Source: Spiroplasma melliferum
GTDB taxonomy: Bacteria; Bacillota_I; Bacilli_A; Mycoplasmatales; Mycoplasmataceae
Reading direction: 5' to 3'
NCBI GenBank assembly: GCA_005222125.1
Contig: CP029202.1
Location: 310,001 to 374,000 of the forward strand
DNA length: 64,000 nucleotides
Shown here: positions 1,181 to 61,126 of the stretch, one piece after another
Layout of the letters: the number at the start of each line of letters is the position of its first letter
How positions within the stretch are numbered: position 1 is the first letter of the stretch
Notes under the pieces: generated by a model
What the model was told of the DNA's origin: nothing
What the model saw: the letters and a program-made list of their open reading frames with translations, nothing else
Database searches by the model: none
Translations under genes and position numbers: made by a program

Positions 1181-3223
1181 ATGGCAAGAAAACCAGGCAG
1201 TTGACATAAACTTAATAATTTAACAAAAAATGTTACTGTAGCATCACGTAAAAAGGGATGACTTGCTGCAATTTGTGCTGTATTATACCTTAGCGCTTTA
1301 ATTCCCTCTGCTTATTTTGCCGTGGCATTTTTAGCAGATATTTTAAATTATGGTGGTATTGAAACCGATGGACCCTTGCCCGATGTTAATGATGGAGATT
1401 ATTTTGAAGTTAACTTTGCAAAAACAGAATTGCGAGATAATACAACAACAACTCCAGTCTTTGAAACTTATGAAATTCCTCCTGACCCTAATACTGGGCA
1501 AGTTGCACAAACTCGTGTTCGTGCAAGATCATTACGATTAGAATATGCTTATAATTTAATTTTTGAAAAAGCACCTAGTTTATATATTGCAAATAATATC
1601 TTTTTTAAACATAAATATAATCAGCCTAATCAAATTCAAATTTTAGATATTTTTACTGATTCACGAGGCACACAGCGGTTAAGTCTTGCTGATGTGCAGC
1701 AAAATCAATTTAATTTAATGAAAAATTTATTATTTTTAAAAATCAAATACCAAGGAGTACTACAAAAAAATTTAATTTGAATGCCAACATTATTTGCTGG
1801 TAATGAAGGATTTTTATCAAACTTTTTAAGTTTTAAATTAGGAGAAACAAGAAACAAAGATGATTTAAAACCAATAGTTTGAGAAAAACAAACAAATATT
1901 CTAGGTGAACAAGCTAATAATATTATGATTAATGGTACTAATGATAGTTTAGCGTTAGCAGATAGAGTTTATGCTGCTTATAAAGAACGTTTTGCTGCTT
2001 TTTATGCAGAAAATAAAGGAAATGATAAAGAATTTATTGGCGATTATAATCCATATAGTAATTTTGCTATTTCAAGTGTTAATCCAAATGACCAACTGTT
2101 TCCAGGTACTTTTATTGATAGTACACATTACATGCTTGATATTAATCGGGTAATTCAATCAGCCTATAAAAAAGGTGATTCAGAGCAAAGTTTTGCAAAA
2201 ACAGATACTCAGATTAATGGTAAATATATTCCACAATTATTAATTTTCTTAATTAACATTTTAGAAACATCACAAAATCGTGGTTTAGTGTTACCAACAG
2301 AACTTGTACCAACAGATTGACAAATTTGATATCAACATCTTCAACCAAAACGTTTAAATGTTAATCAGCCAGAGCAATTTTATTTTATGTTTTTACCACA
2401 AGGTGAAACAATTAAAAATGTGATTGCAAATCGATTGGGGCAAGAAATTAAAGATGTTTTAAATGGTAAATATTCATTATCAACAGCAATTAGAGAATTG
2501 GAAGAAGATGTTTTGAGCAATCCTAATGGGTCAAAATATAAATGAGTTTATGATTGAAATATTTTACCATTTCAATCATATGGAATAATAGAGAAAGCAG
2601 ACTATACTGTTGTTAAAAGAACAATTCAAGAAAATGGTGATTTAACAATTAATTTTAATAACAATCAAGCGAAAAAATCAGACTATGTAATAATTGATCA
2701 ACCATCATTACATTCAATTACTAATTTAGTTAATACTGGCGATCGTGATGCCTATTCAATTAGTAATAAACAGAAACGAAATACTTTATTTACAAAATAT
2801 TGAAGTGCTAATTTATATGGTGCACAGAAGCCATTAAATTATATTGACATTGATGTTTCAAATATTCCAGGTGATATAACTTCATTCAAAACAATGCTAC
2901 AAAACCAAATTGTTAATCGCACATGAGAATTTATCCAAAATATTAGTCAGAAGGTAGGAAACAATTTAAACATTAGTGATAATGTATTAGAAATAGATTA
3001 TGCTAAGGCGATTGCAGAAGATATTATAACATTTACACCTTTAAATAATTATCATAATGCTGCTGCTAATTTTAATGAATGATTTTATGCATTGCAAGCA
3101 AAAAGTGAAGAAGAATATAGTAATTTAACTGTTATTGATATTAAATTAGAATTAAAAGAGAAAGAAAATGTTCCACAAAATCTCCAAGCAATTACTTTCC
3201 GTTTTAACATTAATTATATTTAA
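1181..3223 (+). CDS. Membrane-anchored ectodomain protein (680 aa)
   Basis: I do not recognise a named family. The ATG follows AGGAG at a good distance. A basic N-terminus with several Trp/Lys is followed by one hydrophobic helix at about residues 29-52; the remaining 630 residues are polar, lack cysteine clusters and probably face outside. At least ten in-frame TGA codons read as Trp. The C-terminal 120 residues contain a W-E-x-I-type helix followed by strands ending in FRFNINY, which resembles the modules in the lipoprotein immediately downstream, so the two may be distant relatives. A surface role is inferred from topology and neighbours only. Confidence 0.8.
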
Positions 3224-3258
3224 AATTTATGTATAAAATATAAAAATGTATATAAAGT

Positions 3259-3267
3259 GTATATAAT
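3259..3267 (+). promoter_or_regulatory. -10 region for lipoprotein 3306
   Basis: TATAAT at 3262-3267 lies in a TA-rich tract with tandem TGTATATA-like repeats, 39 bases before the lipoprotein start. The -35 box is uncertain. Confidence 0.4.
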
Positions 3268-3305
3268 GATAGTAAGTATTAATGTTTGAAAAGGAAGGGA
3301 TTTAA

Positions 3306-5513
3306 ATGCGTAAAATTTTAACACTTTTAACAACATTTCTGATTACAAGTGCTTCGATAACTAGTGTTATATCATGCGGAACAATTTCTCCACCAAAAAT
3401 TGCTGGAAGAGAAAATATTTCAACAGAATTCACTTTAACTAATAATGTTATTGTTACTGATGACAATATGGCTGTAGAAGAATCAATATTTAATCAAGCA
3501 AAAAGTGAAGGAAGGATTTCTCAAGATTTATCCTTAGATTTTTTTGAAATTACTGATGCGGAAAATATGGTAAAACCAACTGCTGCTAATACGCCACAAA
3601 CTGGACATGTTGTTTTAACCGTTCGCCAAGATGAAGATATTCCATATATTGGTTCGGTTACCATTCGTTTTACTTTAGTTAAAAAATTGTCAATGGACAT
3701 TAGTCAAACTGTTAACTTAAAAAATGTGTGAGATGTAACAAAATATGAAAATGTTGAGGAATTATATAATGATATTTGGGAAAAGGCAGTTGGTAGTTTT
3801 AAACCAGAAACACCAATTGATATAGAAACTTATGATATCTCAGGTTTTGATTTACCAAGCGTTTATAACACAGAGTTACCTGTAACAATGTTTTCTGAAT
3901 ATAATGGAAAAGCAAATACGCCAACAAGTCTTTTTAGTGGAACAATTACATTCAACTTAAACATTATCAGTTATCGTGCTACGGTTAATTTGAAATTACA
4001 ACAAAATAACTTAGATCCAAAATTGTTATATGATTTAGTGTGAAAAAAAGTTAAACAACAATTTAGTGATGACCATGGAGTTTCAAGTGATTATAATGAC
4101 TATCAAGTTGAATGAAGTGATGTGATAGAACCAGATATTGGTGGCAATACATGATTGAATTTTTTAGCAACACCAAATAATGAAAACATTCATCATTATA
4201 TGAGAGTTGATGGGTTTATTTGTAAAGACCAAATTGAATTACCATCAACAATAGAATTATCAATTCCAATTGTTGTAACTCAACAAGAACGGCCAAATGT
4301 TGATAAAGATTGAATTTGAAAATTAGCAATGCGAAAAGCAAACATTAATGGTGGTCCAGCATTAACTAATTTTAATACAACAGATTGACAAACAATATTT
4401 AGTAAGAATTGACCTAATATTGGGCGAACAGAAACAGTTACTTTGCGTGCAGTTAATCGTAACACTGATCCAATGTTTAAAGGCGATGTTAAAATTACAT
4501 TAAAATTAATTAATCAAGGGATTGATCCTGGTTTATTAGAATTAGACCCAATTTTATTAGTTAAAAGTGATAATCATACAACAGATTCAGTCTTACATTT
4601 AGTATGAGATAAACTTATTAATAATAAAGCATGAAATCCGCATTTATCACGTGATTTAGTGAATTTTAAGCCTGAAGACCTAGATAGATTAAGCAATGCT
4701 TTACGAGACGCTGAAAACAGTGAAGAATGAAAATCTTATGCAATTAATATTTCTGGAAAACAAGAGGATGCTGGTCGTGACTTTAAAATAACTGTTCACG
4801 GTAAAATTAAGATGGTTAATAAAGCGATAGAAAAAGATGCCATAATTGATTTATCCGATAAAACTTATAACTTTATGCCAAGAAAACAATTTGGTTCAGA
4901 TAATCAAGTGTCTTATTTAGTTCATCAAATTTGAGGTGATATTATTAAAAATTCAATATTTACTGCTAACGATGAACAAGCTTTTGGTCTTTCAAAAATT
5001 CAAACTGATTGAAATTACTTTGAACCAATTTATCAACAAATAGATGAAGCAATTAATAAATATGATGCAAGTAGTAGTGACGATAAAATTCCATTAGAGT
5101 TGAAGTTTTCATTTAGAAACAATGCTATTTATACAGGCCAAGTGACTGTTAAATTAAATTTAACAGCAAGTGAACCAATTAATCTTGATTTTAATTTAAC
5201 AAGTTCAATGTTACCAATATTTATTCGTAGTTTACCAACAACATCAGAAGATAAAAAAGAATTGGTAAAAAATATGGTTAATACAATACTATATGATGGA
5301 ATCATAAAAAATCCAGACTTAAAAGCACAACAACGAAATATTTTATGACAATTATTATCTTATGATACAGCAACGGAAGAATTTATTGAACAATTTAATT
5401 TTCCAACAGAAAGTAATCCACAACGAGAATTAATTATTAACATTAAAACATCATCTGGCCAATTCGTTAATGGTTCATTTATGTTAAAAATAAATTTAAT
5501 TTATCAACCTTAA
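3306..5513 (+). CDS. Repeat-containing surface lipoprotein (735 aa)
   Basis: A typical Mollicutes prolipoprotein: positively charged start, hydrophobic core and a lipobox-like ITSVISC with the cysteine at residue 24, which should be lipidated by Lgt and leave the protein on the outer face of the membrane. The rest appears to be about five to six degenerate modules of roughly 100-130 residues. Each begins with a short helix (VWDVTKYENV, LVWKKVKQQF, LVWDKLINNK, IWGDIIKN) and ends with a strand such as GSVTIRFTLV, GTITFNLNII, GDVKITLKLI or GQVTVKLNLT. About twenty TGA codons encode Trp. An AAGGAAGGGA ribosome site precedes the ATG. Function unknown; adhesion or scaffold roles would be guesses. 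Confidence 0.88.
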
Positions 5514-5541
5514 AACTCTTCAAAAAAGAAGAGTTTTTTTC
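5514..5541 (+). terminator. Terminator after lipoprotein 3306
   Basis: Eight-base stem AACTCTTC/GAAGAGTT, A-rich loop, then a run of seven T residues, starting at the stop codon. Confidence 0.88.
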
Positions 5542-5576
5542 CTTTTAATAAGAGGGATAGTATTTTTAAAAGAAAA

Positions 5577-5585
5577 TGCTATAAT
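5577..5585 (+). promoter_or_regulatory. Extended -10 promoter of the 5627-14889 unit
   Basis: TGCTATAAT is an exact extended -10 motif 42 bases upstream of the first membrane-protein gene. No good -35 is seen. Spacing inside the downstream cluster allows this promoter to serve many genes. Confidence 0.5.
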
Positions 5586-5626
5586 CATTGTAAACGAGGG
5601 AGAAATTATTAAATTAGGTGGTATTG

Positions 5627-6196
5627 ATGGAAAAAGCAACACAAGATTTTCAAAAAAATGATGTTCGGTTAACGAGAATGTATTTTACTACGCCAATGGA
5701 AATTATTGCTAGAATTATGATTTTAATAGGTCAAGCAGTTATGTTGGGAGTAATTATTATTGTATCAGCTTCTTTAGCAATGATTGCAACTAGTAAATTA
5801 CCAATTCCTGCAGTTTTTAATAATTTTGGTTTAGCTGATGGTGTTTTTCGTGGTCTTACCATTGTTATTGCTCTGTTTGGAATTCTCTTTTCCTTAATTT
5901 TTGTAATTCCAACGTTAATTGTTCGTAATATTAAGCTTCTAAAGGTAACTGGAATTATTTTTAATACGGTTGGATGCATCTTTGTTTTTCTAATGTTAGG
6001 ATTAAGCATTATTGCATATCTTTATATTCCTGTTCGATTAAATTTACCAGGGGTAATTATGGCTGGGATTTGTATGTTAACATTATTTTGAGGTAGTTTT
6101 TTATTATGATTATCAGCAATTCGTCAGCAAAAACGAATTAACCTTGCTGTTGCTGAAAGTTTAGATTTTAGTTCTAAATTAAAAATAGTTGAATAG
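5627..6196 (+). CDS. Four-helix membrane protein, paralogue 1 of 4
   Basis: 189 residues when started at the ATG at 5627, which has AGGTGG five bases upstream; GTG 5618 and TTG 5624 are in frame but overlap that site. Predicted helices lie near residues 28-52, 76-98, 106-130 and 137-160, followed by a short basic tail. Just before helix 1 the motif MYFTTPMEIIARIMILIGQ matches the same position in the genes at 6209, 6982 and 10581. Helix 2 ends FVIPTLIVR, again shared. I know no named family. With its paralogues it may form a membrane complex in the same transcription unit as a large ectodomain protein and a MoxR/VWA pair. Confidence 0.82.
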
Positions 6197-6208
6197 GAAG
6201 GTGTTTTA

Positions 6209-6967
6209 ATGAAAAAAACAAAAAATAGTAAAACAATAAATCAAGAACAATCAGCAAAAGTAGTGAAAACAATGCAGTTCATTGTTGATAATCGTCCGCC
6301 AGTGTTAAAAAATTTAGATAAAACTGTTATTGATAAAACAGTAAAATCATTAGGAGAATATGAATTAAATCGAAAACAGCAAATTCGACCATTACCTTAT
6401 CAATACAACCTTGAAGCAAGTAAATATTATTTCTCTACTAAGAGTGAAACAATAGCAAGAACTTTAATTGTCTTCTCACAATTATTATTAATTGTAGTTG
6501 CACTAATATATCTTCCAACATTAGGGCAAGTAGGAGCACAACTTATTATCTCTTTATTATCAAAATTTAAAACTCCATTTACTGATCAAATTGTAACAAT
6601 TGGCCAACCAATTGTAATTGGAATAATTATTTTATTAGCTATTTTATGAATTGCAACATTCTTTTTTATCACAATTCCAATTTTAATTACCAAAACATTA
6701 AAAACTGTTAATATTTGAACAATTATTGTTAGTATTGTTGGTAATCTTAATTGTTCTTCAGTTCTTGGGTTAGCCATTTTACAATTTGTTTATGTTAAGA
6801 ATTCAGTTGCTGGATTAAATATTAATCCATTTATATTACCGTCATTTGCGATTATTGCTTTTTGTTGTTTTATATTGGGTTGCTTATTTTTAAAAAGTGA
6901 TCGCAAAAAATACCAAATAAAGTTAGAAAATGAAATAGCAAATCAAATTAGGGCGCTGAGAGAGTAA
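6209..6967 (+). CDS. Four-helix membrane protein, paralogue 2 of 4
   Basis: 252 residues; the start is 12 bases after the preceding stop, with AGGAAGG as ribosome site. It has a soluble polar N-terminus of about 80 residues, then four predicted helices near 85-108, 130-155, 165-185 and 205-230 and a charged C-terminus. The pre-helix motif YYFSTKSETIARTLIVFSQ and the helix-2 end FFITIPILITK align with the other three paralogues. Several TGA-encoded Trp residues fall in helix-bordering positions. Function unknown; membrane location is clear from composition. Confidence 0.82.
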
Positions 6968-6981
6968 GGAGAAAAACTATT

Positions 6982-7695
6982 ATGTTAACAAAAATTAGTT
7001 CAAAACGAGACGAATTAGCATTGCAATGAAACACACGAATTGAAGTTGCAGCACGTTTATTAGTTTTTAGTTTTTCAATTTTAGGAACTTTTATGGGTTA
7101 TTTTATTGGGGCTGGTTGTGCAATGGCTTATAATAATATTAAGAATCTAACGGGTGTTATTTCACATCGAACTTATGAATTACATTATATTATTGCTGGA
7201 ATTGTTGGTTTTATTTGTGCTGTTTTTTTCTTTTGTTTTATTGGTTTACCATATTTAAAATTAAAAAAAGCAACTAGTTTTAAAAGCTGAATTATTATTT
7301 CAACTATTTTTGCAACAATATATTACACAACATGTTTTACTTTAGCAATAATTTTTATAAATATGTTTAATACTATTAATAATTATTTTATTGTTGGTTT
7401 TACTTTGCTTATTATTTGTCTGGTCGTAATTTTTTCGTCGTATTTTTCACTTTGACGTGAAGTAAAAAAACAATGGATTTTACGAAAAAAATTTGAGTAT
7501 TTAGCAGATGAAGAACAAATGAAAAAAGTAGAAACAAAATTAGCAACTTTAGAATTACAACGTGAACGCCTTGTTGAATTAGAAACAATTAAATATAATA
7601 AAGAAAAGTATAGTTTAAATAATTTAAAGGAAAAAAAGAAACATATTTATGTTCAAAAGCCTGTTTTAGAAGAACAAGAACAAGAAGAAATTTAA
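6982..7695 (+). CDS. Four-helix membrane protein with coiled-coil tail, paralogue 3 of 4
   Basis: 237 residues; it starts 14 bases after the previous gene behind AAGGAG. A very short N-terminus leads into the variant motif LQWNTRIEVAARLLVFSFS, then four predicted helices at about 22-46, 67-90, 97-120 and 125-148; helix 2 ends FIGLPYLKLK. Unlike its paralogues it carries a highly charged C-terminal region of about 85 residues rich in Glu, Lys and Leu that looks like a cytoplasmic coiled coil. That tail may bind a soluble partner such as the ATPase encoded downstream, which is inference. Confidence 0.8.
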
Positions 7696-7743
7696 AATCA
7701 TCTAAACAAAAAAATATAATAAATATTAGAGGAGACCGTATTA

Positions 7744-10485
7744 ATGAATAAAGAAGATAACAATAATAATGTCGTGGAAGTAACAATTCAGCCCGTTCGG
7801 CGAAAAATTTCTCGGAAAACAAATTTAAATCTTTTTGCTATTATTGCAATAATAGCAATTACTGCTGGGCTAGGTGGAGTTATTTACTCAATTATTGCTG
7901 CTTCTTTTTATCATAATAAAAATCCATGAGCAAATGCTATTTTGCTAGATGATAAAATTACAAAAATGGTTAATTCACAATTATCAAAAGCATTAGTTGA
8001 TTCTAATGGAGTTGCAAAACCAGAGAATTTAACTAGTTATGTTCAGTTTAATGTCGGTGAAAAAGATGGAATTGATATTTATGCTAATTTAACTAATATT
8101 CAAATTATTCAAGATATTTTTGCAAAAAGTAATTGAATTGAAGATAATTTAAGTATTGTTGAAACAATGCTAAAGGGAACAGGTGCTAGTTTATCAGGAA
8201 CCAAAGTAATTTATCAAAATAATCTCTTGAATTTAGTTTTGCGACCAAAAATTTTATCTTATCCATATAATGATGGTGATGATAAATATGGTTTGGTAAC
8301 AGTTGTTCCAGTGGATTCTCAACAAGGGCTCTTTACATATAAAGTTCGTTTTGCTTTGCAATTAATTGCGACTGATTTTGCTGGTTATTATATTGATTTA
8401 AAGAAAACATTTGATTATACATATGATACAGTAGAAGGAGTTTACCCAGTTGCTTTAACATTAAGTCAACTTTTAAATTTAATTAGCAATCAAAAAATTG
8501 TTAATTTAGTGCAAAAATATAATGTTAGACTAGACAGTGGTAATGAATTAATTTTAAATAGTCTTTTAAGTGAATATTATCCAATTGCAAAACCAGATAA
8601 TAGTATTCTTATTAATGAAGAAATTGTAAATAAAGATGGTGTTTCTTTTGCACCAGTTATTGGAACGCCATCTGCCAGTGACTTAACATTAAATATTAAG
8701 TATGATTCTAAAAAATTTAGTTCATTACAACAATTTGGTGCTAATCTTTTTAATTATCATGATAAAAATTACTCAGCAATTGCTAATATTTTTACTAAAA
8801 TTGGAATTACAATGCCGACATTTGAAAATGTCAAAAATAGTTATGATTTATATGATCGAAACAGTGAAAATACTTTTCTTACTGATGCAATGATTGACCA
8901 ACGAGTAAATTCTTATCGAGGATTTGTGAAAGAAATGGGCGTTGATTCTGATAATATTGCTGATAACTTTAATTATGTTACTAATGATAATAGCCAGTAT
9001 GTTTGAGGTTCAGAACATCAAATTTTTTATAATGAAGTTAAAATTAAATTTTTAAATATTAATAACAATTTGGGAAATAATATTTATCGTAGTCCAACTA
9101 AAATTTACTATGACCAACAACGTTACACTAATACTTCAATTAATTTCCAAGCGTTTGATTTAGCGGCAAATGTTAAAAATGTTATTGAAAAAGTTCAATA
9201 TGATGATTCTGAAGCAGAAATTGATCGCCGATTAACAAATCAAAGTGGAGTTATTAAAGCAAATTTAAAAGATTATTTATTAAAGCAATTAAATAATCCC
9301 CATATTAAAATTGACAATATTGTGAAAGAAATTACTGTTGGTGTTACACATAATGCTTCTACAATTGAAGGAACAGTTTTTGCAAAACAGGTACCTATTA
9401 ATGGAACTTTGCGGGGGAATAATAATAAAGTATATCAAGATAAATTGTTAACCTTACCGAAAATTGACATCACAGTACGTTTTTCTTATGATGGTACTAA
9501 CAGCAACACTTATAATTTATCTTATCAATATGATGTGGCGCCAAAAGTAGTTAAAGATTGACGTGGTGTTGATAAAAATAGTCTTAATGTTTTACAAGGT
9601 GATTTTAACTTTTCACGGAATTATACAACACTTGATAAAATAACAAGTTTAGAAAATGATTATCGTAAGGAAATAATTAGTGTTGCTAATATATGAGAAA
9701 ATAATAATCCGATGGGAGTAGGGAATGGAGATAATAATTATCCCGTTGAATTTTCAAATTGAAATTCTTTTGCAATTAAGTTAAACCAAATTAATGTTGG
9801 ACGAAATAATAACAATAATTTAAGAGTTGGGTCTTATAATGCTAGTGTAACAGCAACAAAAGAATCGTTAAATTATCAAGGAACATTTACAACTAATTTA
9901 ATTTATGTAAAAGCAGCACCAATTGAGCATATTACAGTGCAGTCATTGCTTGCAAATAGTTCATGAACACAGCAACAAGCTTATCGACAAATTAAAACTA
10001 ATATTTTAAATCAAGCTGCAAAGTATGGTTTAAATTTAACAGATCGTGATTTTAGTATTAGTGGTATTTCAGAAAATAATGTAGAAAAATTACCAGTTGG
10101 AAATAAAGAAATTATTATTACTGCTTTGGGAAATGATAATGTTGTAACTGGAACGGCAACTATTAATTTAATTGTAAATCCAGTTAATATTAGAAAATAT
10201 GATAATGCTCTTAAACTAGGTTTTCAAAAAGTTAATCATTCAATTGGCGAGACAATTAACATGATTTTTGCGCAATTACAACAACCAATTAGGAAAGATG
10301 GGTATAACATTATAAATCCACGTCAATATTTTGATGTTATTATTTTAACTGAAAATAACCGTGAACTAAGTGCTAATGATATCTTTTTAGTAGAAGGTAA
10401 ATATTGGTATTATATTAAAGTAACAAGTTTTGGAGCAAGATATTTTGATGGAACAATATCAAATAATTTAATTGTTAAAAAATAG
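7744..10485 (+). CDS. Large single-pass ectodomain protein (913 aa)
   Basis: The product has a short Asn/Lys/Arg-rich cytoplasmic N-terminus, one helix at about residues 31-58, and roughly 850 polar residues predicted outside the cell. No cysteine follows the helix, so it is membrane-anchored rather than lipidated. The ectodomain is Asn/Tyr/Thr-rich with recurring strand segments such as GTFTTNLIYVK, GTATINLIVNP and DGTISNNLIVKK, each after a helix or linker, suggesting tandem beta-rich modules of 100-150 residues. Eight or so TGA codons encode Trp. It sits between four-helix paralogues 3 and 4. Function is unknown; a surface component of a complex made by this cluster is the simplest reading. 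Confidence 0.83.
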
Positions 10486-57156: not shown

Positions 57157-58242
57157 TTATTTAGTTAAATTAGTTAAAAATTCAAATGGTGTCTGAAAGT
57201 TTAAAGATTTATGTACTCTTTCAAAATTATAAAAATAATAGTAATCATTTAATTTATTTTGTAAACCAACTGCATCCAATATTTTTTCATCAAATACAAA
57301 TAACTTAGTATAATTTTGATGAAATCTTTCAATTTTACCGTTTGACTGCGGAGAACGAACAGGTGTTGTTTGATGTAAAATATTTTTATCTGTTAAAAAT
57401 TGAGTAAAAGTAGTTTCTTTAACGCTACTTTTTTGATTATTCCGATGACTATTAATAAATTCAGAACCGTTATCAGTTCTAATCCGTGTTATTTTAATAC
57501 CAAATATTTTTTTAAAATCACTGATTGCTCTTTTAACGGCATCAATAGCATTCTCAGTGCATAATTTATCATAAATATAACCGAATACTCCTCTAATTCT
57601 TTCATCAATAAAATCATAAACATAATACTTTTTATCAACTGGAAATTTACTTGGCATAAAATATTTAGCATCCATTTGTAATAATCCTAATTCTTTTACT
57701 TCATATCTTGGATGTTGTCTTTTAATTTCTTTAATTTTATTTTTTATTTTTAATCAACGCTTATCTTTTTTAAGTCAACGAAAAAATGTTTTTAAATTTT
57801 TAGGTGCTTTATTTTTTAATTCTTCTCCGTGAATTCCTTTTTTTAAATTATAATACAATGACAAAACACCACCAGCACGTTTATCAGAATATTCAAAATA
57901 TAAATCACAGATATTTTCACGAACATCATTACTATATTGATAATTAATATTATTAGGAACTGTTGATTTTAATAATAAATCTTCAAAATTATTATTTGCA
58001 TATGCAACTAAAATTTTCTTTGCTCAATAATAAAAAGTTGAAAATTTATTTTTAAAATATTTTTTAATTAAATCTTTTAATAACAACTTGGTTTTAAGAA
58101 AAAACTCCTTACATAAATTAATATATGCAAATATTTTTGTTTTTATTCTTTTATAGTATTTATTTTGATAGTTTTTACTTAAAAAATCTTGCAATTTTGC
58201 TTGTAAATCGCTTAAATTAGAGATATTAATAATATATTTCAT
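57157..58242 (-). CDS. DDE (rve-type) transposase of the prophage
   Basis: 361 residues, intact when TGA is read as Trp. The N-terminal 170 residues are basic and helical, probably DNA-binding. An integrase-core domain follows: LGLLQMDAKYF (first Asp) near 189, RTDNGSEFI (second Asp) near 257, and SPQSNGKIERFHQ (Glu) near 298. The pattern fits IS3/IS481-like rve transposases as carried by some SpV1 viruses; the IS family cannot be fixed here. GGAGGG lies eight bases before ATG 58242. It is divergent from the lipoprotein fragment at 58317 and probably mediates integration. Confidence 0.85.
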
Positions 58243-58316
58243 TAATTTACACCCTCCTTAAGGATATATAGTATAATTATAACATTGAAGATAATTTAAA
58301 AAGAAAGGATAAAAAT

Positions 58317-58568
58317 ATGAAAAAGATACTTAGCATTTTAGGAACAATATGATTAACAGCAACAAGTACAACATCATTAATTAGTTGTGAAAAACCAAAA
58401 TCAGATAATAATAATGAAAACGGGGGGAATAATAAACTTACACCAAACACCAAACCCGAACCACAAGAGCCACCAAAAAATAGTAATTGAAAATTAATTA
58501 CCGATTATAATTCTTTTGAAAATAATATTTATTATCAACATTATTTTCAAAAGAATTATAATCGGTAA
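58317..58568 (+). pseudogene. Truncated lipoprotein fused to phage-gene sequence
   Basis: 83 codons. A full lipoprotein signal with cysteine at residue 24 (TTSLISC) and a low-complexity linker (DNNNENGGNN, PNTKPEPQEPP) is followed by NWKLITDYNSFENN, a segment also encoded in the same order by the minus-strand phage gene 58498-59118. The fusion point is the left edge of a perfect 43-bp inverted repeat, and a stop comes soon after. A ribosome site (AAAGGA) and the shared divergent promoter region are intact, so a short lipoprotein could still be made. Confidence 0.7.
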
Positions 58569-58582
58569 TTAATTTTCAATTA
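58484..58582. repeat. Perfect 43-bp inverted repeat, 13-base loop
   Basis: 58484-58526 is the exact reverse complement of 58540-58582. The 3' ends of both convergent frames lie inside it. The arms contain no long T-run, so this does not look like an ordinary terminator. Confidence 0.92.
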
Positions 58583-59118
58583 TCTTCAATTAAATTAACT
58601 GTTTGTAAATCATTTATATTTGTTTTTAATTTATTTAACATTTGCGTTAAATTATATTTATTTGCAAATGAATAAATAAAATTAGTTAATTCTCTTAAAA
58701 ATTGTTTTTTATCAACATCATAAAATTTATTAATGTTATATTGTTTAACATAAGTATCTCAATTTTTATATAAATCCATAAATTTATAACTAGGTTTATC
58801 ATAAGAAACACCAGTTGAATAACTATCCTTTAAAAAATCTAAGTATCATTTATCGTTATAAGTTAATGATTTTGATGTTTTTAAAGTAGGATTAATAAAA
58901 TAATTGGTATCACTTCAATTTTCAAAAAAAGTGCTGCGTAAAAACATCGTATTAATAAAATCAGTTTCATTTATACCAGTTTCTACACTTCGCTTTGTTC
59001 TTGTTTTTTCTTCTGTTTGTTGTGATTGATGGTTTTGTTGTAATGTCATTGCTCCTAACGAGAAAAAAGAAATCAATAAAATTGGTACAAACGAAAATAA
59101 TACTAAAAACTTACGCAT
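58498..59118 (-). CDS. Plectrovirus secreted/virion protein, C-terminus truncated
   Basis: 206 residues. A signal peptide (FLVLFSFVPILLISFFSLGA) is followed by a Gln/Thr/Lys-rich linker and an Asn/Tyr/Asp-rich helical domain. It ends FENNVDNKYYFQKNYNR where the reading frame enters the second arm of the 43-bp inverted repeat, so the natural C-terminus is probably missing. Last gene of the minus-strand phage run, its start overlaps the previous stop by eight bases. By position and signal it may be the adsorption (pIII-like) protein; that is inference. No strong ribosome site. Confidence 0.7.
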
Positions 59119-59419
59119 TATTATCTACCAAATTATTTTTACGATTTTCTTTTATTAATTTAATAATTTCATTAAATAAATAACCATAAAAATAATGAAT
59201 TATTAAGATATATCATAATATATCAAATCATAAACCATAAATTATATAACCATTTATACCAGCATATTTCTCTTTTAATTCTCCAATCGTTGAAACTGTA
59301 TCTAAAATACATAAAAGCGTTAATGAAAAACTTATAATAAGATACAAAATTAAATCAACCCAAGAAATAAACAAACCATTTTGTTTCTTTTCTTTTTTAT
59401 TTTCTACATTACTTTTCAT
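59111..59419 (-). CDS. Plectrovirus two-helix membrane protein (102 aa)
   Basis: Starts at ATG 59419 with AGGAG eight bases upstream. A Lys-rich N-terminus precedes a helix at about 20-42 and a second at about 58-80, then a basic tail. TGA Trp codons at 59228 and 59213 are needed to reach the stop at 59111. The 3' end overlaps the next gene. Probable minor virion or assembly protein by context. Confidence 0.72.
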
Positions 59420-59430
59420 AAATTCAACTC

Positions 59431-59667
59431 CTAACTATATAATGTTTTTGAAATAATAAAACCAATAATATATAAACTTGATATTGTTAACATTAACGGA
59501 TGACTAAATAAAATCGCCATTTTACCAAAAATAGATAACAACCAAGTATCAGAATTATATAAATCCATAATAATATTTTTTGCTGATGTCAACTGATTAA
59601 TAATAACTGTAATAAAACCAGTTCCAAATATAGCGATTGCCGCTACTAATAAAACCAACTTAATCAT
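59431..59667 (-). CDS. Plectrovirus two-helix membrane protein (78 aa)
   Basis: AAGGAG lies upstream of ATG 59667. The first helix (residues 3-24, [20 protein letters not shown]) may serve as a signal-anchor; the second lies near 52-72. The centre is polar. Typical of small inner-membrane or minor coat proteins of filamentous phages. No family signature. Confidence 0.72.
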
Positions 59668-59685: not shown

Positions 59686-60120
59686 TTATTTTTTTATTCG
59701 TTTAGTAGTATGAATTCTTTTAAACCCTTGTTCTCTTGTTTTTGCTTGTCTTGCTAAACTTGATAACTGTTGTTTATTGCGACTAACTTTAAATTGTTTT
59801 CGTTCTTTAATATGTTTTTGTAAACCTTGTTTAGTACTAGAAACACCCCGAACAGTAGCACCGTATAGTTTAGAACTATTAATAACACCACTTTTAACCG
59901 TTGAACCTAAATCGTTATAATTAGTTGATGTTCCGTGAATTGCATAAATAGATAATTTAATAATCATAAAAAAGATTAAAAAATAAGCAATTGTTATATT
60001 TGTCATTGGCAATTTAGTATTTCAAATTACATCAAAAACAAATAAAAAAGTATCAAAAATAAAACTAAAAATCTTATTTCAATTATCGTTATTAACGCTT
60101 TCACTTAATAAATTACTCAT
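59686..60120 (-). CDS. Plectrovirus membrane protein with basic tail (144 aa)
   Basis: The start is ATG 60120, 36 codons before an internal ATG, with AAGGAAAG upstream. Hydrophobic segments lie near 17-34 and 40-58; the remaining 85 residues are strongly basic with Lys/Arg/Gln (KHIKERKQFKVSRNKQ) and could contact phage DNA. The start overlaps the ATPase stop by eight bases, so the two are translationally coupled. Confidence 0.72.
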
Positions 60121-61126
60121 TTTTTATCTTTCCTTTCCCTTTTTTTGCTTTTAAATTTTCTTTCAAAATATCAATATCAAACAATTCTAAGCGTTGTTTA
60201 TTGTTTAATTTTGATATATCTTTTCAAAAGTATTCTTTTTTATTAATAACCTCATCGTTTTTCAAATCACGAACAAAACTTAATCAATGACTATCGTATT
60301 TATTAGCAAATTCAAGCGGAATAATTATCTTAAAAAACCGAATTCCCAAACCAACATCCGATTTATGTTTTGCTCGTTTACCTTCTGCTGTTCGTTCTAC
60401 TGATTTTGTTTTTCAAATTTCATAATCTGTAATATCTTGGAAAATACCAATTCGCATAACAAAACTACGATTAAAAATATTACCTAATTTTGATTTAACG
60501 GGTTTTTTCAATGAAATCGGAATAATAATACCACTTGCTAAATGACGAATATTATTTCACATCATACCCTCACGCTGTACGGTAAAAATCGCTCTATTTT
60601 TAAAATGTCTCGCTAAAACAATCCACACACTTTTACCACCATGAACTTTTTTAACTTCGTGGGGACTAGTTCCATCAATATATAAAAAACTTTCATCAAA
60701 CAAAATTAAACTATCATCAGGGGGAACTAATTTAGTTCTATCAGTAAAATCTAAATTATTAAAAGTTAAAAGTTTTATTGCATCATCTTCAATTGGATAA
60801 TTACTATAAATTTTATTTGTTAAAAGTTTCATAACTTGTGATAGAAAAGTTAAAAGCAATGTTTTACCAGTTCCTAATTTACCAATAATTACTGATAATG
60901 GATTATCTCAAATAAAGTAAACTAAACGAAAAACATTTAACTGATAAAAAATATTTTTTCAAACTCACCAAACAAAATAAACACATTGTAAGGCAAATAA
61001 TAGTCAAAATACTAAACCAGTATAATTTAATGAAATTATTCAAAGTAATAAATCAATTAAACTAAACAAAATCATTGAACCACTAATATAACAAAAGTTT
61101 ATTAAAAAAAATGTAAACTTTCTCAT
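60113..61126 (-). CDS. Plectrovirus assembly ATPase (Zot/pI-like)
   Basis: 337 residues. Two or three N-terminal hydrophobic segments up to about residue 70 are followed by Walker A GKLGTGKTLLLTF near 83 and a Walker B-like LILFDESFLYIDG near 140, then a basic C-terminus. This is the plan of Zot/pI morphogenesis ATPases of inoviruses and of the equivalent in Spiroplasma plectroviruses, which drive virion export through the membrane. Numerous TGA Trp codons. Start ATG 61126 shares one base with the upstream stop. Confidence 0.78.

Follow-up and report, generated by a model that had tools for sequence, protein, structure and literature searches.

The perfect palindrome that we analyse here is very probably the scar of a deletion of about 1.8 kb in an SpV1-type (Vespertiliovirus) prophage. 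More important than this lone scar is the module that it exposes, in which a hypervariable domain (VD) is common, allele by allele, to the phage adhesion protein ORF1 and to a lipoprotein whose gene lies on the other strand, in several Spiroplasma species. The window, that is, the whole 64-kb stretch of Spiroplasma DNA under analysis, covers positions 310001-374000 of contig C3 in a 1.41-Mb assembly and was read with genetic code 4, in which TGA encodes Trp.

A palindrome shared by two truncated phage genes

An earlier note on this DNA had reported an exact 43-bp inverted repeat, and the repeat is indeed perfect: two arms of 43 nt (58484-58526 and 58540-58582) enclose a loop of 13 nt (58527-58539). 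Elsewhere in the 64-kb window, perfect arms reach 20 nt at most, and in five Markov-1 control sequences only 12-14 nt, so the palindrome is not a product of chance. Its folding energy as single-stranded DNA is -39.4 kcal/mol (z = -16), and the exact 99-bp unit of arms and loop is single-copy in the genome. The features at the palindrome and around it, by position and strand, are:

57157-58242, minus strand: ORF3-type transposase with an rve integrase core (E = 6.7e-12), downstream of ORF1 and adjoining the lipoprotein gene as in SpV1
58317-58568, plus strand: truncated phage lipoprotein gene, with signal peptide, LISC lipobox, N/P-rich linker and the first VD residues, followed by read-through into the antisense of ORF1
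58484-58526, plus strand: left palindrome arm, the first 43 nt of the lipoprotein-gene VD, NWKLITDYNSFENN
58498-59118, minus strand: truncated ORF1 (adhesion protein, DUF3688), with the N-terminal ~200 residues including the VD start, followed by read-through into the antisense of the lipoprotein gene
58519-58526, no strand assigned: probable deletion junction, an 8-bp microhomology, ATTATTTT on the ORF1 strand
58527-58539, minus strand: loop of 13 nt, further ORF1 VD (VDNK codons) present on the ORF1 side only; identity with SpV1-R8A2B continues through it
58540-58582, minus strand: right palindrome arm, the first 43 nt of the ORF1 VD, aligned to the VD start of ORF1 in SkV1CR23x and R8A2B
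59111-59419, minus strand: small phage ORF of 102 aa between ORF9 and ORF1, without a family match
59431-59667, minus strand: ORF9, Plectro_ORF9 capsid protein family (PF25626, E = 1.4e-49)
59686-60120, minus strand: ORF5-like gene, assigned by position, without a Pfam match
60113-61126, minus strand: ORF2-like gene, assigned by position and length, without a Pfam match

Read with code 4, the plus-strand ORF at 58317-58568 and the minus-strand ORF at 58498-59118 both encode WKLITDYNSFENN before each enters the antisense of the other. The minus-strand ORF matches PF12461 (DUF3688; E = 5.9e-68) over positions 1-145 of the 692 in the profile, that is, over its N-terminal part only. ORF1/DUF3688, Plectro_ORF9, the transposase ORF3 and the SpV1 gene order are the markers of a Vespertiliovirus (SpV1-type plectrovirus) in the window copy, which is not a complete virus, as the 3' two thirds of ORF1 and the 3' part of the lipoprotein gene are deleted. 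The window copy is a defective Vespertiliovirus prophage and both truncated genes belong to it. The earlier observation of two truncated frames in SpV1-type prophage DNA, meeting in a perfect palindrome with a shared segment, is correct. The pairing of a lipoprotein gene with a phage gene holds in that both are truncated and needs amending in that the lipoprotein gene, too, comes from the phage and is found at the same place in isolated phages.

The intact module in prophages and isolated phages

When the genome was searched with the truncated proteins, some 20 copies of ORF1 came up, together with a corresponding set of lipoprotein genes that mostly adjoin them and converge with them. In the intact copies, ORF1 and the convergent lipoprotein both carry the same hypervariable VD, which begins with NWKLI and ends near YRWDG..EP.TP.I. 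The intact lipoprotein runs from a signal peptide through a lipobox and an N/P-rich linker to the VD, and the stop codon of its gene lies 11-30 nt from that of ORF1 in most loci. The lipoprotein signal and a lipobox motif of the LISC/LTAC type are recognisable in the listed lipoprotein genes, a few of which are without a Met start or are out of frame.

Because the two genes are convergent, the DNA of their VDs forms an inverted repeat, which spans ~160-320 bp and encloses ~1.4 kb of largely constant sequence from the 3' part of ORF1. We counted this natural repeat, with arms of at least 120 bp, in 54 loci, isolated phages included; the median arm is 248 bp, at 98.3% identity, and the median spacer is 1400 bp. 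The comparison with intact SpV1-type genomes that the earlier note had proposed recovered the full-length ORF1 and the original layout in SpV1-C74, SpV1-R8A2B and SkV1CR23x (Vespertiliovirus, Plectroviridae). These isolates share with the window copy the gene order, ORF1/DUF3688 and the convergent lipoprotein ORF, which is present on the minus strand in all three. They differ in that the window copy has the deletion of ~1.8 kb, the two VDs of R8A2B are mismatched and the lipoprotein ORF of C74 is frameshifted. The inverted repeat is already recorded in GenBank: the infectious SpV1-C74 and SkV1CR23x have it, and their records annotate it as 'inverted' or as a repeat_region. The GenBank records of SpV1-C74, SpV1-R8A2B and SkV1CR23x contain no CDS for the lipoprotein.

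For the distant Spiroplasma phage SVGII3, the match to ORF1 is limited to part of the C-terminal half, and we therefore do not claim the module outside Vespertiliovirus. IMG/VR yielded only four partial loci. A different phage of S. poulsonii, MaM-2019a (OL689226, OL689227), has a gene with a comparable lipoprotein-type signal peptide. Two loci of the window genome, L071 and L072 (G000:C3 554800-558700 and 571900-575900), contain ORF1/lipoprotein modules that are identical and oppositely oriented, some 15 kb from each other.

The two VDs of a locus are matched to each other. Across the 46 loci with both genes, the median protein identity between the VD of ORF1 and that of a lipoprotein is 0.89 within a locus, against 0.42 across loci. 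The VD is also the variable part of an otherwise constant protein, with median identities among 13 prophages of the window genome of 0.94 for the N-terminal flank, 0.35 for the VD and 0.93 for the C-terminal flank. Among the loci with both genes, the DNA-level inverted repeat is absent only in L062 and in SpV1-R8A2B (L080), in which the VDs of ORF1 and of the lipoprotein are different alleles; in R8A2B, the lipoprotein carries the VD allele of prophage L146, and the VD of ORF1 is similar to the one in the lipoprotein of L097. Similar VD alleles are found in different species with different flanks, and the VD thus seems to move as a cassette.

In all 40 loci compared, the two VD copies share their reading frame. 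The differences within the arms comprise 44 synonymous and 73 nonsynonymous changes (pS 0.025 versus pN 0.009), in a comparison confined to the arms that leaves out C74, with its frameshifted lipoprotein, and includes a few near-duplicate loci. This depletion of amino-acid changes, in the same frame, suggests that both VD copies are translated and under constraint. The VD is modelled fairly confidently in the AlphaFold prediction of the lipoprotein (block pLDDT of 77-93 from residue 51). It has no significant fold match in the PDB or among viral structures, and the lack of a structural match that would mark it as a binding domain counts against the exclusion role proposed below. The structure model of ORF1 is poor (mean pLDDT of 48).

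A pair of inverted repeats flanking a segment of ORF1, with similar alleles in species that have different flanks, is also what one might expect of an invertible or gene-conversion cassette that diversifies ORF1 in the manner of phase-variable or shufflon-type switches. We consider this improbable, as the VD copies are matched and not alternative, amino-acid changes are underrepresented where they differ, and a fusion of the lipoprotein N terminus to the ORF1 C terminus, the expected flipped state, is absent from all fetched loci.

Two other systems were rejected as well. A site-specific DNA inversion system would have a second orientation, which was not seen in any fetched locus. As for a diversity-generating retroelement, no reverse transcriptase is annotated in the three phage genomes, and the repeats are inverted, lie in two genes and are matched.

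The window lipoprotein gene (58317-58568) also has a G run after the lipobox. Runs of 5-8 G soon after the lipobox occur in the lipoprotein genes of L058-L061, L063, L066, L069 and L094 as well, and in L066, L069 and L094 the reading frame is lost at the run. This pattern suggests either on/off switching of the lipoprotein by strand slippage at the G run or homopolymer sequencing error.

Probable deletion scars at the natural repeat

Aligned with R8A2B and SkV1CR23x, the ORF1 strand of the window remains homologous over the conserved N-terminal part, the arm and the loop, up to ...AATAAATATTATTTT, which corresponds to window position 58519 (query 600). After the junction, the lipoprotein side picks up with ATTATTTTCAAAAG. 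The 8-bp microhomology at the junction, ATTATTTT, comprises NKYYF codons of ORF1 on one side and the antisense of ENN in the lipoprotein on the other. At its outer edge, TAATTGAA, the palindrome coincides with the natural repeat of SkV1CR23x (position 4386). On the SkV1 map, about 1.86 kb is missing: the remainder of the ORF1 VD together with the 3' parts of ORF1 and of the lipoprotein gene. The lost interval extends from codon ~20 of the ORF1 VD to codon ~14 of the lipoprotein VD, with the outer 43 bp of each arm retained. An intact copy of the window VD allele, TDYNSFENNVDNKYYF, did not turn up, and the junction was placed with the help of the related alleles of R8A2B (TDYNWLKDNFDNKYYF) and SkV1 (TDYNYFDKNIDDKWYF).

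Other prophage copies, which the earlier note had suggested checking for the same palindrome, contain such scars with other alleles; the 99-bp unit itself does not recur. A second scar in the same genome (L061) has the allele WKLVDDVWEEVKQSS, arms of 18 nt and a loop of 20 nt, and comparison with a close allele that is intact in L086 places its junction at TTGATGAT (8 bp). A third, L111 in S. phoeniceum P40, has arms of 25 nt, and the 5' end of its lipoprotein gene is also lost.

The recurrence of scars with different alleles favours slippage across the stem of the natural repeat, and disfavours assembly error and a one-off inverted duplication. The VD repeat would fold into a stem, either in the single-stranded phage genome or on the lagging strand, and the polymerase would slip between short direct repeats near the base of that stem, a step for which RecA should be dispensable. 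Hairpin-associated slippage deletions between short direct repeats need no RecA. The junctions described here resemble them in having 8 bp of microhomology within a long inverted repeat, and nothing notable sets them apart beyond the repeat being a natural one of the phage. The recA gene of the window genome has one in-frame TAA (G000:C3:633362-634144), and an interrupted recA has been reported for S. melliferum (PMC3563533).

The history put forward in the earlier note was an inverted duplication joining phage sequence to a (host) lipoprotein gene, perhaps by hairpin-primed or template-switch copying of ORF1 sequence onto a lipoprotein gene that was already there. Fold-back rearrangements do seem to occur at the VD repeat (in L163, described below), but a duplication is unneeded: intact phages have both arms where the window has them, and the order of the lipoprotein 5' end and the transposase is the usual one, and in SpV1-C74 and SkV1CR23x the arms are already part of the natural repeat. 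We therefore regard it as very improbable. A repeat that is normal in infectious phages, which the earlier note had itself set against its account, is largely what these two genomes contain. Replication of single-stranded DNA, which the note had invoked as the agent, survives as a plausible setting for slippage on a hairpin, although the event is a deletion between the arms and not a duplication. Nor can the identity of the arms be taken, as it had been, to mean that the event is recent or the repeat maintained; the VD copies of intact phages are nearly identical too, so arm identity says nothing on the age of the event.

It is more doubtful still that the window palindrome now acts as a bidirectional terminator or regulatory hairpin between convergent remnants, since, very stable as the hairpin is and placed between two convergent frames, both genes are broken and the other scars differ in sequence. 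A search for an intrinsic terminator, as a G+C-containing stem with a short loop followed by a T run, found 0 sites in 58200-58620. The least probable origin is an assembly or sequencing artefact in the form of a fold-back read chimera, of which long perfect palindromes are a classic signature and with which the single-copy state of the exact unit would agree: a chimera would put the same gene on both outer sides, whereas here the lipoprotein 5' end with the transposase faces the ORF1 5' end, and independent scars with other alleles are present in the same genome and in another assembly.

A rearrangement of another kind is seen in a different genome (L163, G002:C1:1299000-1306759). Here, the locus folds back at the VD repeat (1431-3904 and 5287-7760), such that a reverse copy of the ORF1 5' part, ORF9, ORF5 and ORF2 takes the place of the lipoprotein 5' end, around one ORF1 3' part. 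The reverse copies are 99.92% identical over at least 2,474 bp. The locus may have arisen by snap-back, by recombination between two prophages or as a fold-back of the assembly, and it points to the VD repeat as a site of more than one kind of rearrangement.

Possible roles of the matched domain

ORF1 is equated with g1 of the related SVTS2, which is named 'adhesion protein (CoaA)' in the ICTV profile (PMC8295915). The VD may be the specificity domain of this adhesion protein, and the lipoprotein would then display the same VD on the infected cell, where it could occupy or mask the receptor. That the lipoprotein gives type-specific superinfection exclusion by displaying the phage's own VD is a credible proposal, which we hold at somewhat less than even confidence. 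More tentatively, the pair may form an allele-matched self-recognition module that excludes only its own type, the copies being kept in step without RecA by pairing of the arms in the single-stranded genome and the palindromic deletions arising as a by-product. With recA interrupted, copying between paired arms is a natural candidate for keeping the VD copies identical, and our preferred guess is that this may proceed by intramolecular template switching in the single-stranded genome.

There are precedents for parts of this scheme. The Vir lipoprotein of phage MAV1 of Mycoplasma arthritidis has been described as surface-expressed and as conferring resistance to superinfection (PMC7466169), and the likeness, that of a phage-encoded lipoprotein in a Mollicute, is one of description and not of sequence comparison. 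Integrated SVTS2 sequence has been associated with virus resistance in S. citri (PMC8140453). In the filamentous phage Pf4, superinfection exclusion of related phages is exerted by the coat proteins pIII, pVII and pVIII (PMC11436027). The likeness is that a filamentous phage uses parts of its coat proteins against related phages, and the difference is that in Pf4 the virion proteins themselves act, whereas the Spiroplasma module has a separate antisense lipoprotein gene with a copy of the domain. A limited search of the open-access literature returned no paper that names DUF3688 and none that describes a matched VD pair. Nor are we aware of a report of Vir having a hypervariable domain in common with the adhesion protein of MAV1 itself.

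The distribution of alleles gives no support for exclusion. Prophages with the same VD are not depleted within genomes (4 shared pairs observed versus 3.7 expected), and the mismatched VDs of SpV1-R8A2B and L062 count against an exclusion role. In three of the four shared pairs, one partner is without a recognisable intact lipoprotein gene in the fetched stretch (L069, L100 and L145), a post hoc observation that proves nothing. The lipoprotein VD could instead be a homotypic ligand, a receptor, a virion-tethering protein or an agent of lysogenic conversion that acts in the relationship with the insect or plant host. In favour of these roles, the VD is hypervariable and part of a predicted lipoprotein, homotypic binding would be served by a matched copy just as receptor blocking would, and co-resident prophages share alleles at chance frequency. 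Against these roles stand the direct Mollicute precedent of MAV1 Vir for exclusion by a phage lipoprotein (PMC7466169) and the lack of positive evidence for homotypic binding; we see them as possible but rather unlikely.

The module has been present all along in phage isolates sequenced long ago, where its lipoprotein went without a CDS. If type-specific exclusion by this lipoprotein is true, it would explain both the variability of the SpV1 adhesion gene and how integrated viral DNA could confer resistance on Spiroplasma. The VD pairs also offer a natural case of inverted repeats in concerted evolution, in a host whose recA is apparently broken.
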